From contig JAHQIY010000002.1 in assembly GCA_019054805.1 (NCBI GenBank), positions 5,022,001 to 5,086,000 on the forward strand: a stretch of DNA of 64,000 nucleotides, given 5' to 3'. The number at the start of each line of letters is the position of its first letter. The first letter of the stretch is position 1. Origin of the DNA: Brachionus manjavacas. Lineage: Eukaryota; Rotifera; Eurotatoria; Ploima; Brachionidae. The notes under the pieces are model-generated. The model saw only the letters and a program-made list of their open reading frames with translations, was not told the DNA's origin and searched no databases. Below, in pieces: positions 37,420-45,670 of the stretch. A program made the position numbers and the translations under genes.

Positions 37420-37990
37420 AACCTATATAAATCTTTAATCGGATCTATAATTGATTACTCTTTTCTGTGTCTAAATTCATTTTCGGAGACAAAAATTAAA
37501 AAAATTAAAAAGTCTTACACTTAGCAGTTCGTTTTATACTTAAACTAAAATTTGATACTCCTTCCAATATTTTGCATCATGAGGCCATTAATAAACTTAA
37601 ATTCTTAACTGTCTCGAATCGACTTTTTGAACTGAGCGAAAAATATGAAGCGGGAGGACTGCGTCATTCTGTTCCATTGGTTATCAAGCTGGTTGATGAA
37701 TATAAAGCGGGTTTTGAATCAAGGTATGTTGAATCAACTCCATTGTGTAATTGCTATCTTACTATTTCTTATTTCTTTCACTGTTCAAAACTAAAATACT
37801 TTTCACATGTAACCTCTTACAATTTATCAATTTTTAATTGTCTTTTTATTATATTTTAACTTATTTTTATTTTTCTTATATTTTTTCTTTACATTTTTAT
37901 TTTATTTTGTATCTATTTTTAATTTTTTTTATTTTTTAATCTGAAAGATATTTAGCTCGGCACAGATAAAACAAATAAATAATAAATAAA
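37420..37990 (+). mobile_element. LINE-A copy, 5'-truncated
   Basis: The translation gives KSLIGSIIDYSFLCLNSFSE, then after a break AVRFILKLKFDT..NKLKFLTVSNRLFELSEKYE and the PLCNCYL terminus. These match the 38090-39755 copy residue by residue with modest divergence. The tail (CTGAAAGATATTTAGCTCGG, ACAGATAAAACAAATAAATA) ends near 37990. Frame breaks show that it is inactive. Confidence 0.8.
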
Positions 37991-38089
37991 CATTACAAAA
38001 GAAATCATTTATAAAAACGAAGAGGAAGAAGAAATAAACCACGTTATTTTACGTAATAGACCAAAAAAAAATAGTCAACGATGTTCAAA

Positions 38090-39755
38090 CCTCTAAATCA
38101 AAAAAAAAAAAAGCTGCTTAAAACAATAATCAAATTAATGCTGAACATGTTTTTTTTCCTGACAAAATTCATAATCTAATGTTAAAAAACTAACCTAGAA
38201 ATTCATTAATAGAAATCACAGAACTTTTTAATTTAACTCTTAGAGAAGGTAGAGTCCCTAAAGCATGGAAAACATCGAACATTACTATGATTCAAAAAAA
38301 AGCCTCTTCTTTACAAGATCCTTTAAATTATAGATCAATTAGTATTACGAGTTGTTTGGGAAAGCTCCTGGAACGCATAGTATTTTCAAGATAATACAAT
38401 TATTTGGAACAAAATTCACTCCTTATCCAGGAGCAATCTGGATTTAGGAAACACCGGCGAACATCAGATAATCTTTTCTTTTTAATTCAAAAAATTTTGG
38501 AATCATTTTAAAAAAAAAAAGTGTTTGTGGCCTTTTTTTGATATTTCTAAAGCCTTTGATAGGGTTTGGCATGAAGGTCTACTTTTTAAATTGATTAAAA
38601 TGAATCCACCTTATTACTTGACTAACTGGATTAGATACTTTTTAGAAAGTAGGACATTTAAGGTAAATGTGAATGATCCTCTGAGCGAAGAATATAAAAT
38701 AACTGCAGGTGTTCTTCAAGGCTCAGTAATTAGTCCTCTTTTTTTTAGTATATATATTAATGACATCCCAAAAAGAAACAAAACAAATAATGAATACTCT
38801 CTGCTTTTCGCAGATGATCTATTTGCATTCTTCATTTATAACAAAAAAGGGAACCTTGAAAATAAGATTGATAAATACACCAACGAACTAGAACAATGGC
38901 TTATTAAATGGAAAATGAAGATATCAGTTGAAAAGTCGTGTTCATTAGTCTTCTCTAGGTACAAAAAAGAGAGTGATAATCCAAACTTAAAAATTTATGG
39001 AAACAGAATAATGAACGAAAAAGAAATCAAGTTTCTTGTTATAAAATTTGATTCTAAGTTAAGCTATAATATACTAGTAGACGAAATTGAAGAACGCTGC
39101 AACAAAAGGCTAAATATTATTAAGATATTATCGAACAAAAAATGGGGGTCTCAATCAAAACACACTAGGAAATTTATATAAAATCTTTAGTCGGGTCGAT
39201 TTTAGACTATTCTTTTCCTTGCTTGGATTCATTTTCAGTAAATAATATCAAAAAACTACAAGCAATTCAGAATACAGCAGTAAAATCTATCCTTTAGTTA
39301 AAATATGATTCTTCCTCCAATATCGTGCAAAATGATGCTTTTAATAAACTTAAATTACTAACAGTCTCGAATGGTCTTTTTGAGTTGAGTGAAAAATATG
39401 CTGGGACAGGACTGAGTCATTCTATTCCATTGGTTGAAAGACTGGTGGAGGAATACAAAGAAGGTTTCGAATCAAGATATATTGAATACCCAACTCCATT
39501 GTGTAATTGCTACCTTACTCTTCTTCTTTTTTTCCTGAAACTTGAACTTTTTAAACAAATGCCACATGTAACAATCTTTTCCAATTTATGTCTTTTCAAC
39601 TTTCATTTTTTTAGCTTATATACACTATTTTGATTCTTTTTTTTATCTAATTTTATTAACTTTAATTTTATTTTTATTTTGTTTTTTTTTTTATTTTTGA
39701 CTTATTCTGAAGGAGCTTTAGCTCGGTAAAGAAAAAAAAAAAAAAATAAATATTT
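38090..39755 (+). mobile_element. LINE-A copy with reverse transcriptase domain, inactive
   Basis: This is the longest LINE-A copy. From about 38150 the frames give reverse-transcriptase blocks in order: REGRVPKAWKTSNI, PLNYRSISITSCLGKLLERI, QSGFRKHRRTSDNL, FDISKAFDRVWHEGL, GVLQGSVISPLFFSIYINDI and the catalytic FADD (about 38810). The thumb region and C-terminus PLCNCYL follow, then the tail with GAGCTTTAGCTCGG and poly(A). In-frame stops near 38195, 38393, 38508, 39181 and 39298 make it non-functional. The 5' part (endonuclease, ORF1) is missing. The block order fits the Jockey/I-like group of non-LTR elements; the clade is not resolved. Its last 360 bases lie inside the left arm of the large inverted repeat. 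Confidence 0.88.
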
Positions 39756-40719
39756 TGATTAATCGAAAAAGGATTACAAGTGTAATCATCAAATTGCATT
39801 TTGTGCAAGGCAAAAACAATGTGCATTTGACATTGTTGCTATGGATTTACCAATTCAACCGAATCGTAAACGTGGTGCCCCAGAAAAAAATATACCAGCT
39901 GTAATAATACAACCATCAGATACAGTTGGCGGTGGTGGAGATCCAAAATGCATCTCTTATGATGATGATGATATAACCGAAGTTGTGCCTAATAATCAAG
40001 AAAAATAAAGAACATTCAATCAAGAATCTACTCAAAATAATGAATCTAAAACATGTGAAAAATGTGGCTTAATTATGAATAAAAAGGATATTTTTATTGT
40101 AATAATTGTTAATTTTTTATTTTTAGAGGTGAGTATTAACTATTTGCGGTTTTATAATGAAATTGCTTTCTTTTTTTATAAATTGATGTAGTTTTTTTTA
40201 TTTTGCTACTTTTTTAATAAAAAAAATAGTCTTTTATTAAATTTGGGAAATTTTTTTTTTAATTTGAGGTAAATTTTAATAAATTTGAAGTACTAAAAAA
40301 CTTTATTTTGATCATCTTTTGAAAAAAAATTCATTATTCTGTTTTTATATTTTAAAAACAATACATTTTTTTTAAATTTTTTTTTATCTAACAAAGTTAA
40401 TCCCATGCCATTATCAAAATATCATTCTAATATTCTTAATCCATATCAAAAATCACAAGAAAAAATATAAGTTCAAATATTAGAAATTGTTAGTAAAAAG
40501 AGATAAAGGACAAAAAGCTTTTTTTAGAAAATAAGATAAATTTTAGAATTTTTCTAAACTTATAAGCAATATACGACGAGAGAAGGGAAACTAGTATGCC
40601 ACACCTGCAGGATGGAAAACTTACGGGAATTGGTGAAATTAAGAATGTCCTAGATAAGAGAAACAGGATAAATAGAATTAAGTTCAAATGGGTCGTAGTG
40701 CAACTTGCAGTGATAGATG
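39394..40719 (+). repeat. left arm of a 1.33-kb inverted repeat
   Basis: The reverse complement of this arm is found almost unchanged at 42292-43618. Both ends are sharp: AAATATGCTGGGACAGG outside and AACTTGCAGTGATAGATG inside. The arm comprises the LINE-A 3' end (to 39755), a transposase-like C-terminal fragment (39763-40008), about 580 bases of A/T-rich DNA and a short less A/T-rich piece from 40590. The LINE-A continues to the left of the arm, so this side looks like the original and the right arm like the copy. Confidence 0.93.
39763..40008 (+). pseudogene. SWIM-finger, MULE-transposase-like C-terminal fragment
   Basis: The frame, open from a TAA just upstream, encodes DYKCNHQIAFCARQKQC, then AFDIVAMDLPIQPNRKRG, and ends in an acidic stretch (SYDDDDITEVV). 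The spacing of Cys/His with IA, followed by a PI..KRKRG.P.K..PA..Q motif, is what I know from the SWIM zinc finger and basic tail of Mutator-like transposases and related domesticated proteins. Beyond the stop the same frame continues with KTCEKCGLIMNKK and a one-base break before GYFYCNNC. The catalytic domain is absent. Confidence 0.5.
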
Positions 40720-42291
40720 CCATGAAGCGCCAGGACGAGTCGGTCAACGAGTACGCCATGAGGTTACGACGAATGGCGGCGCACTGCGAGTTTGGAGCGG
40801 CACTGGAGACCAAGATTGTGAGCCAGTTCGTTGTGGGCGTCGGCATCGATGAGTTCCAGCGAGAGTGCTGCCGCACCAACGATCTCGATTTGAAGATAGC
40901 ACTGGAGAAGGCGCGCGGCTCCGAGCGGGCTGCTCAAGCCAACCGCGGCGGAGATGAGCAGCAGATCAATCAACTACACCGAGCGCAGACCGATGAGCAG
41001 CGGGCGTAGTAGTAGCAACAACAGGCCGAGCTGGTCGACACCAAGTCATGGTTCGTCGAGGCAGGACTGTGGATACTGTGGCAGGCGAAGCCACAAGGAG
41101 AAGTCAGAGTGTCCCGCGTTGAACACGGAATGCAGGAAATGCGGCATCAGGGGTCACTTCGCGAAGGTATGCAGGGGCACAAGCGGAAGCAAGGATGAGA
41201 TGAGAGGCGGTCAGCAACGAGCAAGCATGCAGCAGTTCCGAGCGAGGAGCAGTGGAGGCATAAGCCAGATCAGACAGCTGACCATAGAGTACAAGTATGA
41301 GGTCAACAAGCAGGAGTACGACGAGTTTATACGTTACAAGGCCAGTTGCGATTGGGAGGTCGGCACGATTGGCAATCGAAATCGCTACAACGATGGACCG
41401 AGAGCGAGTGTGCAGATGGGCGGCACAGCTGTGGATTTTCTGATTGACACAGGAGCGCCGATCAATGTCATCGACCAGTTGACATACGAGGCGATGTCCA
41501 ACAAGCCTAAGCTTGAGCGCTGCAACAGCAGGCTCTATGGATACCGAGCAGAGGAGCCCTTGCCGATACTGGGCCAGTTTATGTGCCGGGTCAGGCGTGG
41601 TCGAACGGAGGTGGCAGCTGGATTTGTGATGATCAAGGGTGGCGCAGATTGTTTGCTGAGCTATCGCACGGCAGTGGATCTAAACACCATTAAGCTCATG
41701 GACGAGGCGCGCGAGGTGCGCGCGATCAGCGAGGAAAAGGTCCGACCGGATCAGAGACGACGACATCTTGGTGTTTGGAGCATCGGAAGAGGAGCATCAC
41801 GAGAACCTCATGCGTGTGTTGGAGACATTGGAGCAAGCTGGCGTCACTCTCAATGTGGACAAGTGCGAGTTGTACAAGAAGGAGCTCACGTTCTTCGGAC
41901 TACGACTATCCGAAGAAGGCATAGCACCAACTCTGGATCGAGTCGAGGCGTTGAGGAACGCGAAGCGGCCGGCAGACGCCAGCCAGTGCAGGAGCTTTCT
42001 GGGAATGGTGCAGTACAGCGGCCGATTCATCCAGGATTTGGCAACGCTAGAAGAGCCGTTGTGGGCTGCAATCAAGGCAGAGCGATGGAGCTTGGGCGAG
42101 CGAGAACAACAAGCCTTCGAGCAAGTAAAAGCCTCCATTTCAGATAAATGTTTCTCGTATTTTAAAAAAGACTGGCAGACCAGATTGGTGGTGGACGCGA
42201 GTCCAGAAGGGGTCGGCGGAGTGCTCACTCAAGTTAACCCAAACGATGAGAACGACAGGCGCGTGGTTTGTTGTGCCTCACGGTGGGGAGA
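40720..42291 (+). mobile_element. Gypsy LTR-retrotransposon fragment, GC-rich, internally deleted
   Basis: This forms the spacer of the inverted repeat and is strikingly richer in G and C than everything around it. In order it encodes a gag end (ESVNEYAMRLRRMAAHCEFG, near 40738); two CCHC zinc knuckles (CGYCGRRSHKEKSEC and CRKCGIRGHFAKVC, 41071-41175); an aspartic protease (FLIDTGAPINVID, 41437); the last part of reverse transcriptase (DDDILVFGASEEEHHENL, 41758); and the start of RNase H (VVDASPEGVGGVLTQ, 42190). Most of reverse transcriptase between protease and the DDD motif is missing, with a frame change at about 41750. Gag and protease lie in different frames overlapping at 40954-41009. 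LTRs, most of RNase H and integrase are absent. Confidence 0.9.
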
Positions 42292-43618
42292 CATCTATCA
42301 CTGCAAGTTGCACTACGACCCATTTGAACTTAATTCTATTTATCCTGTTTCTCTTATCTAGGACATTCTTAATTTCACCAATTCCCGTAAGTTTTCCATC
42401 CTGCAGGTGTGGCATACTAGTTTCCCTTCTCTCGTCGTATATTGCTTATAAGTTTAGAAAAATTCTAAAATTTATCTTATTTTCTAAAAAAGCTTTTTGT
42501 CCTTTATCTCTTTTTACTAACAATTTCTAATATTTGAACTTATATTTTTTCTTGTGATTTTTGATATGGATTAAGAATATTAGAATGATATTTTGATAAT
42601 GGCATGGGATTAACTTTGTTAGATAAAAAAAAATTTAAAAAAAATGTATTGTTTTTAAAATATAAAAACAGAATAATGAATTTTTTTTCAAAAGATGATC
42701 AAAATAAAGTTTTTTAGTACTTCAAATTTATTAAAATTTACCTCAAATTAAAAAAAAAATTTCCCAAATTTAATAAAAGACTATTTTTTTTATTAAAAAA
42801 GTAGCAAAATAAAAAAAAACTACATCAATTTATAAAAAAAGAAAGCAATTTCATTATAAAACCGCAAATAGTTAATACTCACCTCTAAAAATAAAAAAAA
42901 TTAACAATTATTACAATAAAAATATCCTTTTTATTCATAATTAAGCCACATTTTTCACATGTTTTAGATTCATTATTTTGAGTAGATTCTTGATTGAATG
43001 TTCTTTATTTTTCTTGATTATTAGGCACAACTTCGGTTATATCATCATCATCATAAGAGATGCATTTTGGATCTCCACCACCGCCAACTGTATCTGATGG
43101 TTGTATTATTACAGCTGGTATATTTTTTCTGGGGCACCACGTTTACGATTCGGTTGAATTGGTAAATCCATAGCAACAATGTCAAATGCACATTGTTTTT
43201 GCCTTGCACAAAATGCAATTTGATGATTACACTTGTAATCCTTTTTCGATTAATCAAAATATTTATTTTTTTTTTTTTTTCTTTACCGAGCTAAAGCTCC
43301 TTCAGAATAAGTCAAAAATAAAAAAAAAAACAAAATAAAAATAAAATTAAAGTTAATAAAATTAGATAAAAAAAAGAATCAAAATAGTGTATATAAGCTA
43401 AAAAAATGAAAGTTGAAAAGACATAAATTGGAAAAGATTGTTACATGTGGCATTTGTTTAAAAAGTTCAAGTTTCAGGAAAAAAAGAAGAAGAGTAAGGT
43501 AGCAATTACACAATGGAGTTGGGTATTCAATATATCTTGATTCGAAACCTTCTTTGTATTCCTCCACCAGTCTTTCAACCAATGGAATAGAATGACTCAG
43601 TCCTGTCCCAGCATATTT
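42292..43618 (-). repeat. right arm of the 1.33-kb inverted repeat
   Basis: This is the inverted copy of 39394-40719, differing by about one base in length and, where I compared segments, essentially identical. It carries the LINE-A 3' end in minus orientation (43260-43618) and the transposase-like fragment in minus orientation at 43005-43250. Outside 43618 the sequence is unrelated to the left flank. Confidence 0.93.
43005..43250 (-). pseudogene. mirror copy of the SWIM-finger transposase-like fragment
   Basis: This is the same 82-codon open frame as at 39763-40008, inverted, with the same stop and acidic end. It exists only as part of the duplicated arm. Confidence 0.5.
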
Positions 43619-43619
43619 C

Positions 43620-43829
43620 AAGCTTCAAATTCCCAATACCCTCGGACACTCCGAGTTAAAGCAGCTAGTATTAGATTATACTCAACAAATTCAAGATACG
43701 AATATTAACCCAATCAATGATCCTGTAGATGCTATATATGTGTTTTGTAACCTCACACTTGAAGAAACGAATCTATTTTACGTTCGCTTCAAGCAAGCGG
43801 CTACAAGCCGCTTGCTATTTTTATATTTA
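43620..43829 (+). other. unidentified 69-codon open frame at the outer edge of the right arm
   Basis: Directly after the arm ends, one plus frame stays open to TAG at 43827. It reads LQIPNTLGHSELKQLVLDY, then INDPVDAIYVFCNLTLEETN, and its composition is that of real protein. There is no ATG; it begins at the repeat junction, so it is probably the broken end of a longer ORF. The last 12 codons coincide with the hairpin at 43792-43816. No family is recognised. Confidence 0.35.
43792..43816 (+). repeat. 10-bp perfect hairpin
   Basis: AGCAAGCGGC, loop TACAA, GCCGCTTGCT. The motif CGCTTGCTxTAGCTATTT at the LINE-D tail near 56570 is similar, so this may be the 3' hairpin of a related retroelement. 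Confidence 0.6.
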
Positions 43830-44364
43830 TAGACTTTTATGACTAAACATAATTAAGTTTTAAAAAAAAGGATGAATTAATTTTATATTTTTTAAAATAC
43901 TCAAAAATATCTCAAATTTAATTACCTGAGATTTTAATTTTTCCTTAAATTTATAAAATATAACAAAAAATTACAATTTAAAAAATTGGAATAAAAACAA
44001 ATTTTAAAATTTTTAGAATTCAGTATTAAATTTCTGTTTAACTAAATTTTGGTAATAGTCAAAAGCAATTCTTTTTTTGTTACTAAAAGAAAAAATATTT
44101 TTTTCAATGACTAAAAAAATTTGATTGATCAAAATAATATATTTATTTAAAAATTAAAAAACTTTTTATTTAATTTAGCCTTTATTAATTTACATTCTTA
44201 ATTATGACACTTTTTATTTGATACGTAAACTAATTGGAATAATAAGCTTGTATTAGAGATTTTGAAAGCTTCTCAAAAGTCAAATTTCTTTCCAGCGGGA
44301 TATTATTAGAATAATAATAATTAAATAAAAATCATTAAAAAAATTTCCAAAATTGTCATTTTTT
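43830..44364. other. AT-rich intergenic DNA
   Basis: No feature is seen. It includes the 3' UTR of the DM9-lectin gene, which reads leftwards. Confidence 0.6.
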
Positions 44365-45552
44365 TTAATCACTATCGTTTGAATAATCCGAACTGGAATC
44401 GCTGGTCGAGTCAATTTCACTAGTGTCGTACACGGTTAGTTCATCACTTTCATCACTACTTGATTCTTCATTGAACTGTTCATTCGGTGCATAAAAATAA
44501 CTAAAATCATATTTTGGCACTGTTGGATTAACATAACTGCTCAAGTCATATCGAAACTCTATCACTATTTTTTGCTCTTCGTTACTGGAAATTAAATTCA
44601 ATAAGCCTTTATTACACAATTTTAATTTTGAATTTTGTTCGTAGGTGACAATAGTTTTCGAAAAGCTTGCCAAAAAATTTATCGATCTTTGATCTTCAAA
44701 ACAAACTACCAATTTTAAATCACAAAACCACAGACATTCCACTTTATCGTACAAATAAATAAAATCATTTTTCTCATTGAAATAAAATTTCAATCTACCA
44801 AAACTATCTAAAATTAATCTATACTTTCCATTAATTGATTGAATACCTTGATTTTTATTCAAACATTCACCAGGCTTAAGATAACATTTTAGCCTAATAA
44901 AACCATGTAATTTTGAATTTTCGATTATATTTTTTAGCTTGATTAAATCTAAATTATTTAAATTAAAAATTGATCTTAATTTATTTCGGCATAAAATTTT
45001 AAGACTCTGAGGCGATGGTTTTAGACACAATACTTGAAATTTTGAATCTAAAATTTTAATCTCTTGTTTCACGGAAGTAATTAATTTAAAATTATGTGTG
45101 CTTAATTTCCCAATTAGATTTACATTTTTGCCAATTGTTCGGCCCACATAAAGAACACTTTCGTTCACTGTGTCATATCCAACTCTTAATGCATTGTCCG
45201 GAAGCTTTGATTCAAAATTGGACCATTTGAAACAATTTGAATTTGGAAAATTCAACAAAGCAAAAGAATCAAGTTGATAAACTTTATTTAAATGGCAAAT
45301 GTCCAATTTATGTACTGACTTTTTAGCTTGGCCTATTTGGTCAGTGATGCGGTTTGATGAACTTAATTTGGAGCGAGTCTTACCAATTAGAAGCAATTCG
45401 CCGTGCTGGCTAAGGCCATGTGGAAACTTTTCTGATAAATTGTTTTTGCTCAGATTATTTAGACAAGTCTCTCTAGTCCAAATGCAAGGCTCATAGCTTA
45501 AACTTGGACTTGAATTGTAACAGCACGATTCGATGATTTCTAAAAGGCTCAT
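44365..45552 (-). CDS. DM9-domain protein with a bulb-lectin-like region and acidic tail
   Basis: A single intact exon of 395 residues. Residues about 25-95 and 110-180 look like two DM9 repeats. The second is clear: KLPDNALRVGYDTVNESVLY, VGR, a GKLSTHNFKL element and IKILDSKFQVL. The first is diverged: FPHGLSQHGELLLIGKTR, then DQIGQAKKSVHKLDIC. DM9 proteins in molluscs and arthropods act as cytosolic mannose-binding recognition lectins or stress proteins. Residues about 218-330 (LKPGECLNKNQGIQSINGKY, RLILDSFGRLKFYF, LW) follow the LxxGxxLxxNQxIxSxNGxYxLxLxxxGxL pattern of bulb-type mannose-binding lectins. The last 45 residues are almost only Ser/Asp/Glu. No signal peptide. The start is the ATG at 45552; upstream in-frame codons lack an ATG. 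DM9 is likely; the second lectin is tentative. Confidence 0.68.
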   Translation of the reverse strand: MSLLEIIESCCYNSSPSLSYEPCIWTRETCLNNLSKNNLSEKFPHGLSQHGELLLIGKTRSKLSSSNRITDQIGQAKKSVHKLDICHLNKVYQLDSFALLNFPNSNCFKWSNFESKLPDNALRVGYDTVNESVLYVGRTIGKNVNLIGKLSTHNFKLITSVKQEIKILDSKFQVLCLKPSPQSLKILCRNKLRSIFNLNNLDLIKLKNIIENSKLHGFIRLKCYLKPGECLNKNQGIQSINGKYRLILDSFGRLKFYFNEKNDFIYLYDKVECLWFCDLKLVVCFEDQRSINFLASFSKTIVTYEQNSKLKLCNKGLLNLISSNEEQKIVIEFRYDLSSYVNPTVPKYDFSYFYAPNEQFNEESSSDESDELTVYDTSEIDSTSDSSSDYSNDSD

Positions 45553-45670
45553 TTTAAATTTTTTTAAATTATAAATTTCAAATTCGGAATAATATCCTTT
45601 ATTTCCATGGCAACACAATATGTTTTAAATAATTTAAAAATTTAAGTTATTCTTTATTGAAACAAAAAAT
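45553..45670. promoter_or_regulatory. 118-base divergent promoter region
   Basis: Only 118 bases separate the start codons of the DM9-lectin gene (-) and the RIIAD1-like gene (+), so both leaders and core promoters must overlap or share this stretch. I see no canonical TATA or CCAAT element that stands out from the A/T background. Confidence 0.6.

Follow-up and report, generated by a model that had tools for sequence, protein, structure and literature searches.

How did a 1.3-kb segment of the Brachionus manjavacas genome come to face an inverted copy of itself across a fragment of a Gypsy retrotransposon, and could the resulting locus serve as a source of hairpin RNA? The locus lies in a stretch of 64,000 nucleotides (the window; contig JAHQIY010000002.1, positions 5,022,001 to 5,086,000, assembly GCA_019054805.1), which is part of a 114-Mb assembly of 61 contigs and was compared with other loci of the same genome (L027-L044). 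A preliminary description of the window had drawn two inverted copies with sharp ends, leaving their exact identity to an alignment. Alignment of the left arm (1326 bases) against the right arm (1327 bases) confirmed the ends to the base and revealed 0 substitutions over 1324 aligned bases, with 5 gap bases at four places (Table 1). All four places are A or T runs (7/6, 6/8, 8/9 and 7/6 bases, left/right). Length differences in homopolymer runs are a typical product of consensus errors or slippage; therefore, the arms are possibly fully identical. Chance is excluded as their origin, as the log10 probability of the 1324 pairings at the base composition of the window is about -695, and the number of position pairs amounts to about 9.6 on the same scale. 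The pair is the sole inverted repeat of such size in a survey of the window and 46 other loci (47 sources of the same genome, 274,467 bases with overlaps not removed, the nine loci holding the same place having been taken out); as the loci were not random, the survey gives no base rate. We propose that the structure is probably a recent inverted duplication that arose locally during DNA repair, by fold-back or template switch, in which the left arm would have been copied into the right one.

Table 1. Features of the inverted-repeat locus and its surroundings (window coordinates).
Feature	Coordinates	Strand	Basis or remark
LINE-A copy, partial reverse transcriptase (RT) domain, 3' end at about 39752, enters left arm	38158..39752	+	RVT_1 and colinear relatives
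Left arm, inferred source copy	39394..40719	+	arm alignment; outer end inside LINE-A
Mutator-like element (MULE) 3' end: SWIM finger C-terminus and terminal region	39767..40308	+	copies in L027-L036
DNA flanking the MULE end	40309..40719	+	from about 40390 on present only in the two arms
Gypsy fragment without long terminal repeats (LTRs), 56% GC, spacer	40718..42283	+	618 bp lost internally, at 41757
8 bp (TGGGGAGA) at the join of Gypsy to right arm	42284..42291	+	junction comparison
Right arm, inverted copy of left	42292..43618	-	arm alignment
Right flank, single-copy in the assembly	43619..45000	+	search of 43620-45000
Nearest open reading frame (ORF), 419 aa, DM9 repeat, reads toward right arm	44365..45624	-	DM9 E 1.7e-6

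The polarity of the duplication was deduced from the outer ends. From outside to inside, the arm comprises the 3' end of a long interspersed nuclear element, LINE-A (39394 to about 39752 in the left arm), the 3' end of a MULE, and 411 bp of flanking DNA. In L037 and L038, LINE-A runs colinearly into the MULE across the position of the left outer end; therefore, the left arm is taken as the source. At the right outer end (43618/43619), the LINE-A sequence AAATATG... abuts single-copy DNA: positions 43620-45000 match only their own place at full length, with two other short matches of 46 and 127 bp (all three candidates scored). LINE-A thus continues outwards on the left and breaks off abruptly on the right, as the preliminary description had noted, and this anatomy agrees well with its view that the right arm was copied from the left in inverted form. 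The reverse polarity, with the right arm as the source carrying a 5'-truncated LINE, was rejected, as the colinear LINE continuation sits on the left and inspection by eye showed no target duplication around the right arm.

The limits of the arms bear on the mechanism. Each arm extends from LINE-A across the junction with the MULE and beyond the MULE end into flanking DNA; its outer end coincides with no element boundary. Because the arms disregard transposon boundaries and contain flanking DNA that belongs to no known transposon, repair is favoured and transposition is disfavoured. Two independent insertions were rejected, since three unrelated segments are common to the arms without a substitution. 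A transposon bounded by terminal inverted repeats of 1.33 kb, either a foldback element or a MULE derivative with a captured Gypsy, would be in keeping with the MULE material in the arms, and a small fold-back MULE derivative is found at L031:2182-3009, with 285-bp inverted arms that are 97.5% alike and lie about 260 bp apart. However, the MULE end at this locus sits within the arm, where 411 bp separate it from the spacer that it faces. The outer ends fall inside LINE-A, between flanks that differ and that show no matching target duplications by eye, and a second copy of the arm-plus-spacer unit was not found in the assembly among the best 40 of 3001 candidates scored for the arm, all 9 for the spacer and all 5 for the flank. 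A transposon with long terminal inverted repeats was therefore rejected, as the outer ends are not element ends, and this origin is extremely unlikely.

At the inner left junction (40718), two bases (TG) are common to the arm and the Gypsy fragment. Four compared Gypsy copies extend leftward from here with one identical other sequence, and the match in L042 begins at 40728. At 42283, three Gypsy copies run on, and the window instead has the 8 bp followed by the right arm. These 8 bp may be untemplated filler, or they may be what originally followed the arm; in the latter case, the copy would have been made from an uncut sister template. An assembly or library chimera, in which a single arm was used twice through false joins, would also leave arms that differ solely in homopolymer lengths, as one sequence polished twice would, and the structure is known from one assembly. 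However, a single fold-back read would be insufficient, as the chimera requires a second false join to the single-copy DNA at 43618/43619, and the Gypsy fragment between the arms is unique and internally deleted. Moreover, the rest of the assembly yielded no second allele of either the arm flank (all five candidates scored) or the right flank (all three), hence also no intact form for comparison. A chimera thus appears unlikely, though it deserves to be weighed.

The window carries 27 private substitutions over 862 aligned columns, 15 of 527 in the MULE part (10 copies) and 12 of 335 in the LINE part (4 copies). All 27 are common to both arms, and none distinguishes them. The MULE alignment omitted the copies of L029, L036 and L037, and the nearest LINE copies (up to 95% identical, among the matches listed) lay outside the LINE alignment; the resulting 3.1% dates the split from the sampled copies, and not strictly the insertion. 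By the rule of three (0/1324), the arms diverge by less than about 0.23% (95%). Therefore, either the duplication took place long after the sampled copies had split off, or gene conversion homogenises the arms. Among the ten other MULE rows, eight (L027 twice, L030, L031, L032, L033, L034 and L038) are mutually 96.8-100% alike, and L028 and L035 diverge from those eight to a degree similar to or above that of the window piece. The MULE piece of the window looks like an older layer of its family.

In the proposed course of events, an old chromosome piece would have carried the LINE-A 3' end beside the MULE 3' end and the 411-bp flank, with the cut-down Gypsy fragment lying next to it beforehand or joined to it during the event. 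After folding back, or switching template, a broken 3' end would have been extended by a reverse copy of 1327 bp of the left side, and end joining would then have linked it to the chromosome on the right at 43618/43619. Either of two routes could lead to this form: a broken end folds back and is extended by limited synthesis, or replication switches template; end joining follows in both. We infer the break, the fold-back or template switch and the end joining from an anatomy, identity and polarity that are directly established.

As in fold-back inverted duplications, the locus consists of an inverted copy of a flank-continuous segment and an unduplicated spacer. At the junction between spacer and inverted copy it has the 8 bp, which are either filler or arm continuation. 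In one study of human fold-back inverted duplications, unduplicated spacers measured 766-70,466 bp; 13 of the 21 sequenced inner junctions showed 2-8 bp of inverted microhomology, and insertions and homologous repeats were seen at 5 and 3, respectively (PMC3907307). Similar to these human cases, the locus combines an inverted copy with an unduplicated spacer of kb size, and its inner junctions have two shared bases and a possible small insertion; the spacer of 1572 bp and such an insertion are within the ranges of that study, which was counted for the fold-back reading (PMC3907307). Several points weigh against a repair-made duplication. The human fold-backs of that account are large and end in a terminal deletion, a translocation or a ring, whereas the copy here is interstitial and 1.3 kb long (PMC3907307), and the chromosome continues to its right. 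In addition, the structure rests on a single assembly, and gene conversion could hold older arms alike. At the DNA level, the inverted duplication probably has no role.

A role at the RNA level is possible, as the locus has long, near-perfect inverted arms with homology to potential targets elsewhere, like a hairpin-RNA locus. If it were transcribed through, Dicer would cut the 1.32-kb stem into small interfering RNAs (siRNAs) against LINE-A and MULE transcripts, and the Gypsy fragment would form a 1.57-kb loop yielding no siRNAs. The preliminary description had foreseen a hairpin substrate for Dicer or Piwi-interacting RNAs (piRNAs) that would also act against Gypsy; this part does not hold for the stem, and Gypsy was rejected as a target of stem-derived RNA because it lies in the unpaired loop.

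A functional hairpin-RNA (hpRNA) locus would be one kept for silencing LINE-A and MULE in trans, like Mu killer of maize or the hpRNAs of Drosophila. A Dicer-like gene is present in the genome: the 1092 aa scanned, from a longer frame whose RNase III part lay outside the scan, score above cut-off for platform, dimerisation and PAZ domains. Argonaute-family genes are present too, with 20 Piwi-domain matches, some of which contain stops and several of which are clustered like exons of one gene. One Argonaute (894 aa) has 98% identity to a Brachionus plicatilis entry at a query coverage of 90%, and 93% identity to a B. calyciflorus entry at a coverage of 100%. Exact matches in at least one of the 46 other loci were found for 181/339 of the LINE 21-mers and 238/522 of the MULE 21-mers of the arm, figures that are biased upward because several loci overlap and many were chosen because they match; the flank gave 0/391, and 23 of the 46 loci have any arm 21-mer match. 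Therefore, stem-derived siRNA could hit other LINE-A or MULE copies. However, four AATAAA signals (44142-44213) lie between the nearest ORF and the right arm on the strand of that ORF, and further ones lie within both arms. The MULE and LINE pieces in the arms are 3' remnants, and arm identity alone is accounted for by youth. Taken together, a locus maintained for such a function is quite improbable.

Two published loci have a like layout. Mu killer is described as an inverted duplication of part of a Mutator-family transposon, with about 1.3 kb of mudrA per half (PMC3440606). It is similar to the window locus in being an inverted duplication with Mutator-family material, for which a long hairpin RNA was proposed. 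Its halves are part of mudrA plus TIRA, and it silences MuDR in crosses (PMC3440606), whereas the arms here hold a MULE 3' end and a LINE 3' end around a Gypsy spacer, and any silencing by them is hypothetical. In the later work covered by that source, silencing plants have two short antisense transcripts unable to form a large hairpin, and the long-hairpin route remained merely possible (PMC3440606), which cautions against deducing function from an inverted repeat. Similarly, the hpRNA locus hp-ODox2 of Drosophila simulans has inverted arms homologous to a LINE (BS2/Jockey), and its account reports that a gene-derived stretch outside the arms gives no siRNAs (PMC10317233), in parallel to the prediction for the Gypsy loop here. 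Judged from these two accounts, long-hairpin silencing loci may start as chance inverted duplications (PMC3440606, PMC10317233). A newborn natural silencing hairpin at the window locus, with undiverged arms targeting a LINE and a DNA transposon at once as an animal counterpart of Mu killer, is improbable. If the locus were a nascent hairpin locus, it would represent a very early stage with clear polarity, in a genus from which multiple RNA-dependent RNA polymerase genes and piRNAs have been described (B. koreanus, PMC12256650); an inert or misassembled locus would be no more than an ordinary structural variant. As it stands, we regard the locus as an ordinary structural variant that prompts a testable hypothesis of silencing.

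The spacer had been called a truncated Gypsy core, which is correct; it lacks LTRs and has additionally lost 618 bp internally. The fragment spans the end of the RT and the start of the RNase H; RVT_1 (E 8.6e-8) and RT_RNaseH_2 (E 2.2e-9) score above the curated cut-offs, and weak matches to an aspartyl protease and a CCHC knuckle fall below them. Other copies occur at six loci (L039-L044), plus two distant matches at 68-70%. Both halves are found in three of the six loci; L040 and L042 carry the 618 bp that the window is without, and L044 has its own, different and larger loss at the same place. In L039 and L040, direct repeats of 265-268 bp that resemble LTRs are 100% and 98.5% identical, respectively. 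Compared with these copies, the window fragment has lost both its ends as well as a piece from its middle. It is about 97-98% identical to the other copies, no more diverged than they are among themselves (4 and 3 pieces aligned for the two halves, with L043 and the first half in L044 omitted). This low-copy family has about 52-58% GC, against about 28% GC of the genome in the window, a base composition that suggests a recent arrival, perhaps a horizontal one. Inverted repeats also flank another Gypsy copy, at L041:562-5159 (467 bp at 90%, with an inner 315 bp at 97.5%); those arms have no match to the other five Gypsy loci or the window.

Copy counts for the arm parts are lower bounds owing to the limit of the arm search. 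The LINE part has at least 27 matches over about 350 bp besides the two arms, and the MULE part at least 13 of 400 bp or more, two of which also span the LINE part. The MULE part is 88-92% identical to the copies in L027-L036, and 91-94% in the multi-copy alignment with gaps excluded. The transposase-like ORF of the preliminary description could be identified through relatives as the C-terminal SWIM-finger end of a MULE transposase, its own 81-aa piece having no Pfam match. In L033, a MULE transposase domain (E 2.6e-8) is accompanied by a SWIM finger (E 3.5e-4), and the frame stops soon past the SWIM motif; in L027, the open frame runs through this motif into the protein present in the arm. 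The first 65 bp of the flank match three places at 85-86%, ending at 40374, and weak matches extend to 40376 in L030 and 40387 in L031 (77%); beyond about 40390, the assembly gave no match other than the two arms (five of five candidates scored).

The LINE-A copy has a Pfam RVT_1 match (E 1.1e-23) in the ORF at 38486-39181, and colinear relatives in L038 over 38158-40308 (87%) and in L028 over 38986-39746 (92%). LINE-A adjoins the MULE 3' end near the same MULE position in the window (39729-39768), L037 and L038, at L033 coordinates 2296-2313, and in L028 at a different one, L033 coordinate 2014. The MULE part of L038 is 99.8% like those of L030-L032, which have no LINE-A match; therefore, these junctions look more like repeated LINE-A insertions into one spot than a single old event. 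A second, more diverged LINE 3' end lies at 37424-38000, directly upstream of LINE-A in the same orientation.
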